Source of the DNA: Acetobacteraceae bacterium
GTDB taxonomy: Bacteria; Pseudomonadota; Alphaproteobacteria; Acetobacterales; Acetobacteraceae
Length of the DNA: 64,000 nt
Reading direction: 5' to 3'
Assembly: GCA_025354865.1 (NCBI GenBank)
Contig: JANXMB010000060.1
Coordinates: 1-64,000 of the forward strand
In this document: positions 14,367 to 25,995 of the stretch, one piece after another
Layout of the letters: each line of letters starts with the position of its first letter
Position numbering within the stretch: position 1 is the stretch's first letter
Position numbers and translations under genes: made by a program
Notes under the pieces: generated by a model
Seen by the model: the letters and a program-made list of their open reading frames with translations, nothing else
The model's database searches: none
What the model was told of the DNA's origin: nothing

Positions 14367-15674
14367 ATGAGTGGCACCCCCCCGAAGACCGTGACCATCA
14401 CCCTCGATGGTACGAACCGCAAGCTGACGATTCCGCTTATGCACGGCACGGCCGGTGCGGACGTGTTCGATATTCGCAAGCTTTACAACGAGCTGGGCGT
14501 GTTCACTTACGATCCCGGCTACGGCGCCACCGCATCGTGCGAAAGCAAGATCACCTATATCGACGGCGACGTCGGCGTGTTGCAGTACCGCGGCTATCCG
14601 ATCGAGCAGTTGGCGGAAGGGTCGAACTTCCTGGAAGTCTGCTACCTGCTGCTGAACGGCGAACTGCCGAACCCGGCGCAGGCGGCGGAGTTTAACAAAG
14701 GCGTCATGCACCACACCATGTTGCATGAACAAATCCGCAGCTTTTACAACGGGTTTCGCCGCGACGCCCACCCGATGGCGGTGATGTGCGGCGTGGTTGG
14801 CGCGTTGTCCGCCTTCTACCACGACAGCCTGGACATCAACGACCTGCAGAGCCGCCGCATCAGCGCCTTCCGCCTGATCGCCAAACTGCCGACGATCGCC
14901 GCCTGGGCCTACAAATACACGGTCGGCCAGCCGTTCATGTATCCGCGCAACGACCTGACCTACGCGGAAAACTTCCTGTACATGTTCCACGCCGTGCCGA
15001 CCGAGGAATACACGGTCAACCCGGTGCTCTCGAAGGCGATGGATCTGATCATGATCCTGCACGCCGACCACGAGCAGAATGCTTCGACGTCCACCGTGCG
15101 TCTGGCCGGCTCGACGGGCGCCAATCCGTTCGCCTGCATCGCCGCCGGCATTGCCAGCCTGTGGGGCCCCGCGCATGGCGGTGCGAACGAAGCGGTGTTG
15201 AAGATGCTGGCCGATATCGGCCACGTCGACAACATCCCCGAATTCCTGTCCGAGGTGAAGGACAAGAACAACCACGCCAAGCTGATGGGCTTCGGCCACC
15301 GCGTCTATAAGAACTACGACCCGCGCGCCAAGATCATCCAGAAGGCCTGCCACGACGTTCTGCACGAGCTGGGGATCGAGGGCGATCCGCTGCTCGATCT
15401 GGCGATGGCGTTGGAAAAGATCGCGTTGACCGATCCGTACTTCGTCGAACGCAAGCTGTATCCGAATGTCGATTTCTATTCGGGCATCATCCTGAAGGCG
15501 ATGGGCTTCCCGACCAGCATGTTCACCGCGCTGTTCGCCCTTTCGCGCACCGTCGGCTGGATCACCCAGTGGAACGAGCTGATCGAGGACCCGGAACAGC
15601 GCATCGGCCGTCCGCGCCAGATCTACACCGGCCCTGCCGAACGCAATTTCGTGCCGCTGTCGGCGCGGAGTTAA
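14367..15674 (+). CDS. gltA: Citrate synthase (type II)
   Basis: GltA (435 aa) condenses oxaloacetate and acetyl-CoA at the entry of the TCA cycle. The catalytic histidines lie in [12 protein letters not shown] and [17 protein letters not shown], and the aspartate in the region after [10 protein letters not shown]. The N-terminal beta-domain with TFDPGYG-like text ([15 protein letters not shown]) is typical of hexameric, NADH-sensitive Gram-negative enzymes. The ATG follows GAGGA. It stands alone, divergent from lpxI, and ends in a strong intrinsic terminator, so it is probably monocistronic. Confidence 0.97.
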
Positions 15675-15728
15675 ACCGCGAGCACGGCAGGTCGCGTCCT
15701 GCCGGACTCGATTCCAGAACCGAAGAAG

Positions 15729-15756
15729 CCGGGGGCCAGTCCCCCGGTTTTTTTTT
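15729..15756 (+). terminator. Intrinsic terminator of gltA
   Basis: CCGGGGG and CCCCCGG form a 7-bp GC stem with a 5-base loop, followed directly by nine T residues. It lies 54 bp after the gltA stop on the plus strand and isolates gltA from the AT-rich island that follows. Confidence 0.93.
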
Positions 15757-15774
15757 GCGTTCGGCTCGGCAGAA

Positions 15775-15806
15775 TTATCCACAGGCTGGGGACAAAATTA
15801 TCCACA
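15775..15806 (+). other. Two perfect DnaA boxes in tandem (candidate replication origin element)
   Basis: TTATCCACA occurs at 15775-15783 and again at 15798-15806 in the same orientation, 23 bases apart (about two helical turns). Both are perfect matches to the strongest DnaA box. They stand at the edge of a stretch (15807-15960) that is markedly AT-rich compared with the rest of this GC-rich window. Together with a CtrA-type site at 15962 this resembles an alphaproteobacterial chromosomal origin, or else a DnaA-controlled promoter or titration site. The whole 15757-16058 gap holds no credible gene. Confidence 0.7.
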
Positions 15807-15811
15807 GGATG

Positions 15812-15841
15812 TTGATAGATTGCTGTAGCAACGGCTATCAA
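15812..15841. repeat. Nested inverted repeat beside the DnaA boxes
   Basis: TTGATAG (15812) pairs with CTATCAA (15835-15841), and inside it TTGCT pairs with AGCAA around a two-base centre. The result is an interrupted palindrome of twelve pairs immediately after the second DnaA box. It could be a binding site for a dimeric protein or a cruciform-forming element. No T tract follows, so it is not a terminator. Confidence 0.75.
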
Positions 15842-15961
15842 GTCTATCGCAACGCAACAAACTCTAAAATTAGAATAAAAAATGCCATTTTTGTAATATT
15901 GAACATAAAAAGAACAGCGCCCACAAAAGACGCAGTCTCGATTCGTCACGACGGCAAAGGC

Positions 15962-15976
15962 TTAACCGATGGTTAA
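15962..15976. promoter_or_regulatory. CtrA-type site TTAA-N7-TTAA
   Basis: TTAACCGATGGTTAA fits the CtrA recognition pattern (TTAA, seven bases, TTAA) and is itself a perfect TTAACC/GGTTAA palindrome. CtrA silences the Caulobacter origin and regulates cell-cycle promoters. The position between the AT-rich stretch and the unknown gene at 16059 would suit either role. Single motifs of this length do arise by chance, so this relies on the neighbouring DnaA boxes. Confidence 0.5.
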
Positions 15977-16058
15977 TTTATGCCTTGTAATCCGGCGCCT
16001 CGCTCTTCAAAATACATCTATAGGTTGTATTCCTATGATTTTGTAACGGGAGGCATGT

Positions 16059-16685
16059 GTGAGCGACCGATTAGCGCTTGATAACCTGGTCAGAAGCCGA
16101 CTGAAGCAATGGCCCCAACGCCCGCCGGGACTGAAGCAACGGCCCGGCCAAAATGCGTGGCTTCGCTGCCGGCCGAGCGCCGATTCCAAGCAAGTACACC
16201 CGTTTCTCAAGCTGCCGGGCAGCAACAATTGGCGCACCTTGCCCGATGGGCTGTGGCTCAATTTCGGAGGCACGCCGGAGGATCCCTTTGTGGATATCTT
16301 TGCAATCGAGGCCTGCAGCACCACCCAAAACCTGTTGGATAAGCGGTCGCGTTTCGCCCCGAGCACGCATTCGATGCTGGCCTTCTGCCCAATCCCCTGG
16401 CTGCTGGCCCCGGTGACTCCCGGCGATCCGACCCCGCGCTGGCGCATCACCGGCATCTTCCGGGAACAACCCACGCAGCCCGCCACCTTGCCGGTGCGCG
16501 AGATGCGGGTGCTCTACGGACTCAAGAGCAGGGACTACACGGGGTTCATACGCACCCAGCTTGCCCATGCGCACGAATTCTTCATGCCGCTGGAAACGCT
16601 GACGGAGGAAAACAGCGAACAGAATCCGGCCTTGCGCGCTTTGGTCAAGCGCGCCTCGATCACCGCCAACTTCCTACGCTGCTGA
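16059..16685 (+). CDS. Unrecognised protein next to the origin-like island
   Basis: A 208-aa protein I do not recognise. The GTG start has an excellent GGGAGG five bases upstream; a nearby ATG at 16055 is out of frame and closes after eight codons. Features: a basic, proline-rich N-terminus (RSRLKQWPQRPPGLKQRPG), a dense aromatic/acidic core (WRTLPDGLWLNFGGTPEDPF, then VDIFAIEAC, then NLLDKRSRFAP), and a second basic stretch near the end. No signal peptide, transmembrane segment or repeat is seen. A start preceded by a strong ribosome site and conserved-looking charged/aromatic text suggest a real expressed gene. It converges with the glycerophosphodiesterase, 61 bp apart. Confidence 0.72.
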   Translation: MSDRLALDNLVRSRLKQWPQRPPGLKQRPGQNAWLRCRPSADSKQVHPFLKLPGSNNWRTLPDGLWLNFGGTPEDPFVDIFAIEACSTTQNLLDKRSRFAPSTHSMLAFCPIPWLLAPVTPGDPTPRWRITGIFREQPTQPATLPVREMRVLYGLKSRDYTGFIRTQLAHAHEFFMPLETLTEENSEQNPALRALVKRASITANFLRC

Positions 16686-21255: not shown

Positions 21256-24200
21256 TCAGAAGTCCGTCTTCAAGCGCAGGAAGAAGGCGTTGTCGGTCGT
21301 GGTCTGACCGTAGGTGTAGTCGTAGACCGCGCTCAGGACGAACGGCCCTGCCTGCGAGATCGTCAGACCGGCACCGACATTGGCCAGATCGGCATCGCGT
21401 GCCGGGCCGGTCACGTTGAACGCGCCGCCCGATGGGAAGGACGCCGATGTCGTGATGCGGCTGGTGATCAGGTTACGCACGTAATAGGCGTGCACCTCGG
21501 GGGTGAAGGTCCAACCGGAGGTCTGGGTCAGCGGATAGGCGGCGCGACCGCCGAGCTTGAGCTGCATGACGTCGAGGTGTTGGTCCGCGACATTCAGGTT
21601 GAACAGCCCGGCACCGGACGTCCGGTGCGCGTCCACATCGAGGTGGATTTGCTGGAAGGTGACGTTCGGCGTCAACACCAGACCGGCCGCGTGCCAGTCG
21701 TAACCGCCGGTAATCTTCGTGCTGAACTGCACACCGGTATAATCCGAGTTACGCTGCGTGCCGAAGGCGCTGATATTTTCCTTGGTGTTGTACCAGTGGT
21801 AGCCGAAGGCACCGATGCCATCGACGAAGAACCCGTTCTGGAACCAGGTGGCATAGACGCCGGCCTGCGCGAGCAGATCGCCGGTTTTGTTGCCGGCCTG
21901 CAGGCCCGAGAAGCTGACATCGGTGTTCGACAGCGACAGCGCCACACCCAGGCGCATGTCGGGTCGGATCAGGGTGTCGGCACCCGCCGCTACACCGTAG
22001 GATGTCGCGGTAAAGCCGGCCACGCCTTCTTTGACGCCTTGGCTGAAGCTCTCGCCGAAGGGGCGCGCCCATGCGGTGAAGCCGCGTCCGGTTTCGTCGC
22101 CGGCAGACATGCCCTCGTTTTGCAGCAGGGCGTAGACGCGATTATCGACCGAGGTGGTCAGACCGCCATTGTTGGTCAGAGCCGAACTCAGGAGCGCTTG
22201 CGCGGTGCCGAGCTGCGACGGCTGCAATTGCGAGAAGAACAGGGTCTTTTGCGCCGGCGTCATGGCATTCAAGCTGTTCAGGATGGATTCGCCCGCCGAA
22301 CGGTTGTTCGCGAGGCTATCGATCAACCCTTGCAAGCCGCGAGCGGCATTCAATTCGTTTTGCAGACCCGTGCTGATCAGGCCTTGTCCGGTCCCGACGA
22401 CCGCAGCCTGATACGCGGTATCGATCTGTTGCGTGGAGGGGGCGGCGAAGCTGATCACCAAGGTGTTGGCGGCCTTCGACGCCAGCGGGTTTTGCAGCCA
22501 GGGATCGGCGCTGTCGCTGGATACGGTCGGGGTCGGCGAGAGCGTCAACGCACCGCCGGCGGACACCGCGACGAAGGATGTCAGGGTGCTGGGGCCGACG
22601 AAATGCAGCGCCACACCGGTGCCGGTGCTTGCGAAGCTCGCGCCGCCGCCGATGGTCAGCGACCCCGTGGTGTTGCCGGCGACGGTGACCCCGAGTTGTC
22701 CGGTCGTGCCCTGGTTGTAGCTGCCGGTAATGCCAGCGGCGTTCGTCCCAATGTTGAGCATGCCGAGATTGGAGACCACGCTCGCGCCGATGGTCCCGTT
22801 CAGCGCAACGGACCCGGGGGCCGCGATATTGAACGTGCCATTGTTGGTCATGGCGATCCCGCCGGAGCCGACGATCAGCGCCCCGGTGTTCAAATTGACC
22901 GTCCCGACCGTCGAGATCGTCGAGCCTGCCGCGATAGTACCACCCGACCCAAAGTTCATATTGACGGTGTTGGCGCCGTTATTGCCGACGATATTGCCGG
23001 TCAGCGTGCCGCCGTTCAGGTTGACGGTTTGCCCTGCGCCGGCGCTTTGCAACGCGATGCCCCCGACGACCGAGCCGTTGTTCGTGAACACGGTTGCGGC
23101 GGTGGAGACGGACAGGTCAATCGCGGTGCCGCTGCCATTCGCAGCCCCACCCTGGATCAGCCCGCTCGCGGCATTGGAAATCGTGCCCGACACTGTACCG
23201 CCGGCGGCGACACCGATGGCCGCCCCCCCGGTGGACAGCACGGTTCCGGTATTCGTCAGGCCGGCGACGGTGCCTCCGCTAACGATGGTCACACCGGAGC
23301 CAAGGCCCGTGATCAGGCCGCTATTGACGACCGAGCCGGTATTGCCCGCGACGCTCAGCCCCGTGCTACCGGCGCCGGTCCCGGACATTGTGCCGGTGTT
23401 GCCGATGCCAGCGACCGTTCCGGTGCTGGCGATGGTGACGCCGCCGCCGGGGCCGGTGATCAGGCCGCCGTTGGTGAGCGAGCCGCCATTGCCGACGACG
23501 GTCAACCCGAAGGTGCCGGCGCCCGTGCCAGACATGGTGCCGGTGTTGCCGATGCTGGCAACGGACCCGGTGCTGGCGATGGTGACGCCGCCGCCTGGGC
23601 CGGTGATCATGCCGCTATTGCTCAGCGCGCCGCCGCTGCCTGCAACGGTCAGGCCCGACGTGCCCACACCCGTGCCAGACATGGTGCCGGTATTGCCGAT
23701 GCCGGCGACGGTTCCGGTGCTGGCGATCGTAACGCCGCCGCCCAGACCAGTGATCAGGCCACCGTTGGTGAGCGAACCTGCGTTGCCTGCAACGGTCAGG
23801 CCCAACGCGCCCGCCCCGGTGCCAGACATGGTGCCGGTGTTGCCGATGCTGGCAAGCGTTCCCGTGCTGGCAATGGTGACGCCGCCACCCAGACCAGTGA
23901 TCAGGCCACCGTTCGTGAGCGAACCTCCGCTGCCTGCAACGGTCAGGCCCGACGCGCCCGCCCCGGTGCCCGACATGGTGCCGGTGTTGCCGATGCCGGC
24001 GACGGTTCCGGTGCTGGCGATGGTGACACCGCCGCCCAAGCCCACGATCGTGCCGCTATTGGTGAGCGACCCGGTATTGCCGGCGACGTTCACCGCCTGG
24101 CTGCCCGCCCCGGTGCCGGAGAGGGTGCCGCCGTTGACGATCGGACCGGTCGTTCCGGTGGTCGCAACATTGATCGCGCCACCCGGACCGGTGATCAGGC

Positions 24201-25995
24201 CGTTGTTGGTCAGTGTGCCGGTGTTGCCGGCGACATTCAAACCGTAAGTGCCGGGTCCGGTGGCGGCCAGGGTGCCGCCGCTGTTGTTGGTCAGGACGGT
24301 CAGCGAACCGCCGCTGAGGACCGTGACGCCCGAAGTCGTGCCTTGGAACAAGCCGGTATTAGTCAGGGTGCCGAGCGCGCCGCCGATCTTCAGGCCGGTG
24401 TCGGTGGCGATCACCGTCCCACCGGCGTTGTTCGTGAAGCTACCGATGTTGCCGCCGGTGAAGACGTTGACACCGACGCCATTGCTGCCGTTCGCGGCCA
24501 CCTGCCCGTTATTGACCAACCCGACGAGAATGCCGGACACGCCAAGGGCCGTGCCGTTCGAGCCGTTGGCAGAGATAGTGCCAGCCGCAGCGTTCGTCAC
24601 CGCCTGCACCAATCCGCCAGCGGCGATCGTCATACCCGTGCCGCCCGCGCCCGAAGCATCGACCGTCCCGGTGTTGGTGACGCTGAGCAGAGCGCCCGTC
24701 GGGCCGACGCTGACACCCGCGCCATTCGACCCGGTCGATTGGATCAAGCCGGTATTGCCCAAGGTGGTGACGGTGCCGACGATGCTCGCGCCGATGCCCG
24801 CGCTGCCGGTGGCCTGGATGGTGCCGCCCGTGTTGTTCAGGGTGCCGACGGAACCCGCCGACACGACCTTGAGGCTGGTGCCGCCTGCGCCACTGGTGAG
24901 AACCCGACCCTGGTTGGTCAATGTCGTCACATTGCCGGAGACGGCAATGCCGATGCCGAGACTGCCGGCCGAACCGATCGTGCCGGTCAATGCGTTGGTC
25001 AGGGTGCCCATGTTGCCGGTTGCGGCAACGCTAATACCGGTGCCGGAGACGCCGTCGGCAGTAATCTGCCCTTGGTTGTTAAGGCTCGACAGCGCGCCGG
25101 CAACGTTCACGGCAACAGCCGACGTGCCGTTCGCGATAATCGCCCCGGTCGCGGTGTTCACCAGGCTCGGCACGATCGCCGAGGTGCCGACATTGATCGC
25201 CATACCGCCATCGCCGGCCGCCGAAATGGTGCCCGCATTGCTGACGCTGCCGACCGACGTGGCGATGTTCAACCCGACGCCGTTGGTGCCGGTCGCGGTG
25301 ATGAGACCGGCCGCATTGTTGGTAATCGTGCCGACCGAACCGCCGGCCCCTGCCGTGCCGACGACCACGCCGGCGGCGGAACCGGTGATGGTACCCGTGT
25401 TACCGAGGCTGGCGATGGTGCCGCCGGCGACCACAACCGCCGAACCCAGGGGGCCCGCCGCCGCGATGGTGCCGCCCGTCTGGTTGGTCAAAGTGCCGAC
25501 CGAGCCGCTAGATACGACATTGACGGCGATGCCGGAGGCGCCGCCGGCGCGGACGATCGAGCTGTTGATCAAGCTGCCGATCCCGCCGGCCGCATTGATC
25601 GCCGTCCCCAGACTACCATTGGCCTGAATCAGCCCGGTGCCGGTGTTGGTGATCGTGCCCACCGACGTCGCGGTGACGACGCCGATCCCGATGCCGCCGG
25701 GATCCTGTTGCGACTGGATCGTTCCGTTATTGAGAATGAACGCCGCTGCCCCCGAACCCGTGGCTGCCGCCGGCTGGAACCCGGTCGCGGCGCCGGTGAT
25801 CGTCAGGCTGCCGGCCCCGGTCGTGGTCAGCGAATCGCCGGCGCCCAATGTGACGAATGTCGTTGTGCCAGACTGCGCCGTTGTGACAGTGGTCGCGGTT
25901 TGTGCCCGGGCATCGCCCAATCCGCCGGCCATCGCGAAACCCGCGACCGACGCCAAAAGGGCCGCACGGCGCGAAGAAAAATATGTCTGAGCCAA
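21256..25995 (-). CDS. Large type V autotransporter with repeat-built passenger
   Basis: The 1,579-aa protein has an extended signal peptide (MAQTYFSSRRAALLASVAGFAMAGGLGDARAQ). A very long Gly/Thr/Asn-rich passenger follows, made of beta-helix-like units such as NTGTMSGTGAG and SLTNGGLITGL. The C-terminal beta-barrel of about 270 residues contains GRGFTAWARPFGESFSQGVK and GAGLTISQAGPFVLSAVYDY and ends in the outer-membrane phenylalanine (FLRLKTDF). This is a classical monomeric autotransporter, probably an adhesin or surface structural layer. The passenger has no cysteine visible and no protease motif. Start is a TTG at 25995 behind GGGGGA. The passenger includes five exact-period 147-bp repeats. 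Five upstream genes on the same strand include lipid A and O-antigen functions. Confidence 0.9.
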   Translation of the reverse strand: MAQTYFSSRRAALLASVAGFAMAGGLGDARAQTATTVTTAQSGTTTFVTLGAGDSLTTTGAGSLTITGAATGFQPAAATGSGAAAFILNNGTIQSQQDPGGIGIGVVTATSVGTITNTGTGLIQANGSLGTAINAAGGIGSLINSSIVRAGGASGIAVNVVSSGSVGTLTNQTGGTIAAAGPLGSAVVVAGGTIASLGNTGTITGSAAGVVVGTAGAGGSVGTITNNAAGLITATGTNGVGLNIATSVGSVSNAGTISAAGDGGMAINVGTSAIVPSLVNTATGAIIANGTSAVAVNVAGALSSLNNQGQITADGVSGTGISVAATGNMGTLTNALTGTIGSAGSLGIGIAVSGNVTTLTNQGRVLTSGAGGTSLKVVSAGSVGTLNNTGGTIQATGSAGIGASIVGTVTTLGNTGLIQSTGSNGAGVSVGPTGALLSVTNTGTVDASGAGGTGMTIAAGGLVQAVTNAAAGTISANGSNGTALGVSGILVGLVNNGQVAANGSNGVGVNVFTGGNIGSFTNNAGGTVIATDTGLKIGGALGTLTNTGLFQGTTSGVTVLSGGSLTVLTNNSGGTLAATGPGTYGLNVAGNTGTLTNNGLITGPGGAINVATTGTTGPIVNGGTLSGTGAGSQAVNVAGNTGSLTNSGTIVGLGGGVTIASTGTVAGIGNTGTMSGTGAGASGLTVAGSGGSLTNGGLITGLGGGVTIASTGTLASIGNTGTMSGTGAGALGLTVAGNAGSLTNGGLITGLGGGVTIASTGTVAGIGNTGTMSGTGVGTSGLTVAGSGGALSNSGMITGPGGGVTIASTGSVASIGNTGTMSGTGAGTFGLTVVGNGGSLTNGGLITGPGGGVTIASTGTVAGIGNTGTMSGTGAGSTGLSVAGNTGSVVNSGLITGLGSGVTIVSGGTVAGLTNTGTVLSTGGAAIGVAAGGTVSGTISNAASGLIQGGAANGSGTAIDLSVSTAATVFTNNGSVVGGIALQSAGAGQTVNLNGGTLTGNIVGNNGANTVNMNFGSGGTIAAGSTISTVGTVNLNTGALIVGSGGIAMTNNGTFNIAAPGSVALNGTIGASVVSNLGMLNIGTNAAGITGSYNQGTTGQLGVTVAGNTTGSLTIGGGASFASTGTGVALHFVGPSTLTSFVAVSAGGALTLSPTPTVSSDSADPWLQNPLASKAANTLVISFAAPSTQQIDTAYQAAVVGTGQGLISTGLQNELNAARGLQGLIDSLANNRSAGESILNSLNAMTPAQKTLFFSQLQPSQLGTAQALLSSALTNNGGLTTSVDNRVYALLQNEGMSAGDETGRGFTAWARPFGESFSQGVKEGVAGFTATSYGVAAGADTLIRPDMRLGVALSLSNTDVSFSGLQAGNKTGDLLAQAGVYATWFQNGFFVDGIGAFGYHWYNTKENISAFGTQRNSDYTGVQFSTKITGGYDWHAAGLVLTPNVTFQQIHLDVDAHRTSGAGLFNLNVADQHLDVMQLKLGGRAAYPLTQTSGWTFTPEVHAYYVRNLITSRITTSASFPSGGAFNVTGPARDADLANVGAGLTISQAGPFVLSAVYDYTYGQTTTDNAFFLRLKTDF
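23384..24118 (-). repeat. Five 147-bp tandem repeats in the autotransporter passenger
   Basis: Marker positions of the same motif (gacatNGTGCCGGT) recur at 23384, 23531, 23678, 23825 and 23972, with a degenerate continuation at 24119, exactly 147 bases each time. One period encodes 49 residues (GGGVTIASTGTVAGIGNTGT, then MSGTGAGASGLTVAGSGGSL, then TNGGLITGL). Copies differ by a few substitutions, so recombination could change copy number without a frameshift. Flanking sequence shows older, diverged units of the same pattern. Confidence 0.9.

Follow-up and report, generated by a model that had tools for sequence, protein, structure and literature searches.

The gene-free island at positions 15675-16058 of the window (the whole stretch of 64,000 nucleotides analyzed here, contig C159 of the 4.76 Mb, 190-contig Acetobacteraceae genome G000) is probably a conserved DnaA-binding element that is not a replication origin and that belongs to the uncharacterized gene at 16059-16685, as judged from its sequence conservation across the family. 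Most likely, the island regulates this gene or DnaA itself, and it does not look like the start of chromosome copying. DnaA ties replication to gene expression, yet only a few genes under its control have been described beyond the model species. An array of DnaA sites that keeps its distance to a single unnamed gene constant in many genera points to a cell-cycle gene.

The island lies between gltA, the citrate synthase gene (14367-15674, + strand; Pfam Citrate_synt, E 1.4e-139), an upstream neighbor that has no part in the mechanism proposed below, and the gene at 16059-16685 (+ strand), which encodes a 208 amino acid protein. Its description as gene-free is correct, although mechanically called open reading frames overlap the stretch. 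On the gltA side lies an apparent intrinsic terminator (15731-15752, + strand), made up of a GC stem (15731-15744) and the T run behind it. Four half-sites come next: a perfect DnaA box TTATCCACA at 15775-15783 (+ strand); a degenerate half-site TTGTCCCCA at 15787-15795 (- strand; TGGGGACAA on the + strand), where relatives have TGTGGATAA or TGGGGATAA; a second perfect TTATCCACA at 15798-15806 (+ strand), the best-conserved half-site; and a degenerate half-site CTATCAACA at 15810-15818 (- strand; TGTTGATAG on the + strand), where most relatives have TGTTGATAA. These half-sites recur every 11-12 bp on alternating strands, and the two perfect boxes are in the same orientation at a 23-bp step, as the original prediction had it. 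Perfect boxes are not enriched genome-wide in G000, with 11 occurrences versus 11 for a reversed control pattern; given 11 sites in 4.76 Mb, we estimate that about 0.001 pairs within 50 bp would be expected, so the 23-bp pair is significant rather than a chance occurrence.

The same prediction described an AT-rich segment unlike its surroundings and a TTAA-N7-TTAA site, and both descriptions hold, as does that of the terminator flank. The AT-rich stretch (15791-15950, without strand) is the sole place in the 64 kb where GC content per 100 bp is 0.36 or lower, with a minimum of 0.31 against a window mean of 0.642. Its sequence varies between genera in an alignment of the upstream regions, and it would be promoter-region DNA, not an unwinding element. 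Apart from the motif TTAACCGATGGTTAA at 15962-15976 (+ strand), the window contains no TTAA-N7-TTAA; shuffled sequences average 0.10, and in close congeners a degenerate version of the motif occupies the equivalent place. Following the Caulobacter precedent, we take TTAA-N7-TTAA to be a CtrA site and GANTC to be a CcrM site. Directly before the gene, an imperfect inverted repeat AATACATCTATAGGTTGTATT (16011-16031, + strand) is kept in many genera and is a probable promoter or operator element for some regulator. The gene-free stretch yielded no sigma-70 consensus promoter, and a search against Rfam gave sub-threshold matches only. Separately, some relatives change both arms of the inverted repeat in step (AATGCA...TGCATT). 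Elsewhere in the window, a repetitive 1579 amino acid reading frame at 21256-25995 (- strand) is autotransporter-like in appearance.

The central part of the array is a module, TGTGGATAw-N2-TTATCCACA-GGn-TGTTGATAA, with half-sites every 11-12 bp on alternating strands, that is present in at least 13 Acetobacteraceae genera. We searched 300 Acetobacteraceae genomes with the pattern TTATCCACAGGNTGTTGATAA, allowing up to two mismatches, along with a control pattern; matches were obtained in 34 genomes for the former and in none for the latter. Among the matches listed, 28 of the 34, from 13 genera, share the strand of a homologue of the gene at 16059-16685 and precede it by 216-286 bp (median 277). 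The remaining six comprise the match in genome G042, which is the hemE-linked origin itself; two matches on contigs separate from that of the gene, including that in G433, where module and gene are both near contig breaks and may thus represent the same place; two without a listed homologue; and one without gene coordinates among the matches listed. In 20 aligned upstream regions, the best-conserved block is TGTGGATAA-NN-TTATCCACA-GGC-TGTTGATAA, with approximately 1.6 bits per column versus 0.44 overall, and a GATTC-N4-GACTC element containing two potential CcrM sites lies about 35 bp downstream of the boxes in many genera. The module was also retained in 11 inspected loci where gltA was not found upstream (L064-066, L071, L072, L075, L079, L080, L084, L085 and L094), which indicates that it belongs to the region of the gene at 16059-16685. 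The position of the boxes is thus conserved with respect to a single gene, independently of gltA, as would be expected of a gene regulated by DnaA.

The gene itself is far more common than the module. Its family is present in 179 of the 300 genomes, of which 28 carry a module recognizable at the search sensitivity used; genomes with the gene and without a recognizable module include G168, G103, G366, G290, G009 and G012. The gene, therefore, does not need the module. The 208 amino acid protein had no match in Pfam, NCBIfam, PHROGs or PDB, with the exception of one weak Pfam match for one homologue, and its structure model was unusable (pLDDT 37).

The arrangement of three to four half-sites one helical turn apart, at a nearly fixed distance from the gene and moving with it in at least 13 genera, suggests how such an element could work. 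DnaA would bind the half-sites cooperatively, one next to the other on the same face of the double helix, and could thereby turn the gene at 16059-16685 on or off in step with the replication cycle. Further input might come from CtrA through the TTAA-N7-TTAA motif; in many genera, methylation by CcrM at the GANTC-N4-GANTC element just downstream of the boxes might contribute as well. Under this model, the gene would be a lineage-specific cell-cycle gene.

Binding by a protein other than DnaA seems highly improbable to us: the paired half-sites form imperfect palindromes of the kind favored by dimeric regulators, but the best-conserved half-site matches the DnaA consensus, TTATCCACA, exactly, and in the 20-region alignment the half-sites vary mostly within DnaA-box-like sequences. 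A difficulty for control of the gene by DnaA is the distance of some 280 bp, since classical activators and repressors usually bind closer to the genes they control. This unusual spacing leaves room for a site that acts on DnaA instead of the gene, that is, a titration, inactivation or reactivation site similar to datA or DARS, which we consider unlikely, although it is the main alternative. Elements of this type exist in E. coli (PMC4585315, PMC5742627); the one-turn spacing of the half-sites would allow DnaA to assemble on them cooperatively; the module lies between genes, well away from the start of the gene that follows it; and in G058, the sole carrier genome that could be mapped, it is located far from hemE, about 49% of the chromosome away. 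Such a site, however, would not have to remain beside the same gene at a constant spacing, and the module, with its 2-bp and 3-bp gaps and alternating strands, lacks the core geometry of DARS. We prefer a control element of the gene at 16059-16685.

The interpretation of the island as oriC, the first of the two readings in the original prediction, is not supported, whereas the second, a secondary DnaA-regulated or titration locus, finds support in the conservation described above. A DnaA-box cluster such as an origin contains is present, with two perfect and two degenerate half-sites, but the genes that typically adjoin origins, hemE, ppsR, maf and parAB, are not neighbors of the island: hemE is on contig C100 and ppsR on C17 of G000, and the earlier remark that the hemE neighbor is missing here was right. 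GC skew, followed contig by contig because G000 is in 190 pieces, gave no negative-to-positive turn at the locus in the window or in four long contigs of congeners. Skew is weakly negative on either side of the island in the window and negative on either side in the G021 contig; it is flat in G007 and goes from slightly positive to negative, the wrong direction for an origin, in G013; and in G018, which has kept the hemE-linked origin, the sign relative to gltA is the same as in the window. The power of this test is limited to moderate given that, at the usual hemE-linked origins, local skew turns in G042 and G168 but only weakly in G058 and not clearly in G103. Together with the lack of a skew turn, the presence of the module in G018, alongside a hemE-linked origin, and in G023, as well as its distance from that origin in G058, argue against oriC. 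In G058, the module is at 1.963 Mb and the box-bearing ppsR-hemE region at 3.873 Mb of a 3.907 Mb chromosome. The module tracks the gene, not a chromosomal position.

The usual origin of the family is situated between the divergent genes ppsR and hemE. In G042, this region contains 14 perfect boxes; degenerate boxes are found there in G058, G103, G168, G180 and G366, and in the congeners G283 and G018. Skew sampled along complete genomes is lowest near hemE in G168; in G103, it is lowest at the end that carries hemE, and a second local minimum near 3 Mb is read as a rearrangement. The distance between parS sites and hemE is 14-103 kb in G168, G180, G103 and G058; in the genus of the window, there are only isolated two-mismatch matches or none. 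The literature searched contained no account of DnaA boxes at an oriC of Acetobacteraceae.

In G000 and most inspected congeners, this arrangement is disrupted: hemE (C100:4011-5033 in G000) and ppsR (C17:33049-33879) are apart, and neither has adjoining DnaA boxes. The usual origin is, accordingly, missing from its place in much of the genus, which bears on where the chromosome starts and how it is segregated. The origin of the G000 clade was not located. ParB was not found in G000, G001, G008, G010, G015 and G239, which are 97-100% complete, and was found in nine of the 15 congeners tested; canonical parS was absent from those of the six ParB-negative genomes that were scanned. These six form one clade in the GltA tree (support 100/99), with an array that is generally extended by an additional 23-bp unit. 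The absence of ParB could be a real loss or a gap common to metagenome assemblies.

Taken at face value, these observations allow for the enlarged array to be the oriC of the six-genome clade after loss of the ppsR-hemE origin, a scenario that we consider improbable. In its favor, hemE and ppsR lack adjoining boxes in G000 and its closest relatives, the ParB-negative genomes are exactly those of the clade whose array is generally enlarged, the locus has an AT-rich stretch and a CtrA-type site in addition to its boxes, and perfect boxes close to each other occur at just one place in G000 besides the island downstream of gltA. The skew data given above run against it, the module is older than the change and elsewhere exists beside a hemE-linked origin, and the AT-rich stretch is not conserved. 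The corresponding evolutionary account, in which a clade apparently devoid of its ancestral origin and ParB turned an old DnaA-regulated promoter array into a chromosome origin through the gain of a repeat unit, is quite doubtful; if true, it would be a case of an origin created from a regulatory site, in uncultured Acetobacteraceae.

G000 also contains a separate candidate for a site acting on DnaA. In the folB-uvrC intergenic region (G000:C144:12651-12673, L008), there is a triple box TTATCCACA-N5-TGTGGATAA-N3-TGTGGACGG whose spacing and orientation match those of E. coli DARS exactly; the DARS1 and DARS2 cores, as read from NC_000913, consist of box I (+), 5 bp, an inverted box II (-), 3 bp and box III (-). 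The same geometry, on the strand opposite uvrC, is found in 16 of the 23 uvrC upstream regions examined, including that of G103, which belongs to another genus; besides L008, the triple box is in the uvrC upstream regions L150-L164 and L172, so that most congeners have it between folB and uvrC. When a further 2.8 Mb of sequence was scanned for this geometry, only two more distinct matches appeared, along with the G000 site again. DARS-like sequences are present in many proteobacteria according to a review (PMC10380432), so the element upstream of uvrC is probably a DARS-like sequence of this already known kind. The folB-uvrC region was also considered as the real oriC and rejected, with skew positive on both sides in G103 and the boxes in DARS geometry. 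A second uvrC in G000 (C172:2307-3662, L175), 80% identical to the C144 copy, has a weaker DnaA-box element upstream and could be a product of contamination, which is 3.6% for this assembly.

With the alphaproteobacterial oriC at ppsR/maf-hemE, the island shares DnaA boxes, AT-rich DNA and an intergenic position, but unlike this origin, it shows no skew turn, has neither hemE nor ppsR as a neighbor, travels with a gene and, in some relatives, coexists with the usual origin. E. coli datA is, as the island probably is, a non-origin cluster of DnaA boxes, in that case a minimal 262-bp region with an IHF site between the boxes. The module resembles DARS1 and DARS2 (PMC5742627) in being a small intergenic cluster, with three DnaA boxes in mixed orientation, but its shorter first gap and strictly alternating strands differ from theirs, and identity with DARS was rejected on this geometry. 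In Caulobacter, DnaA activates the hdaA, gcrA, ftsZ and mipZ promoters, each of which has one to six boxes (PMC3193534). The island is like these promoters in that the boxes are upstream of a gene in an alphaproteobacterium; it differs from them in that its gene is uncharacterized and in that the boxes form a fixed, one-turn alternating array, about 280 bp upstream in most genera.
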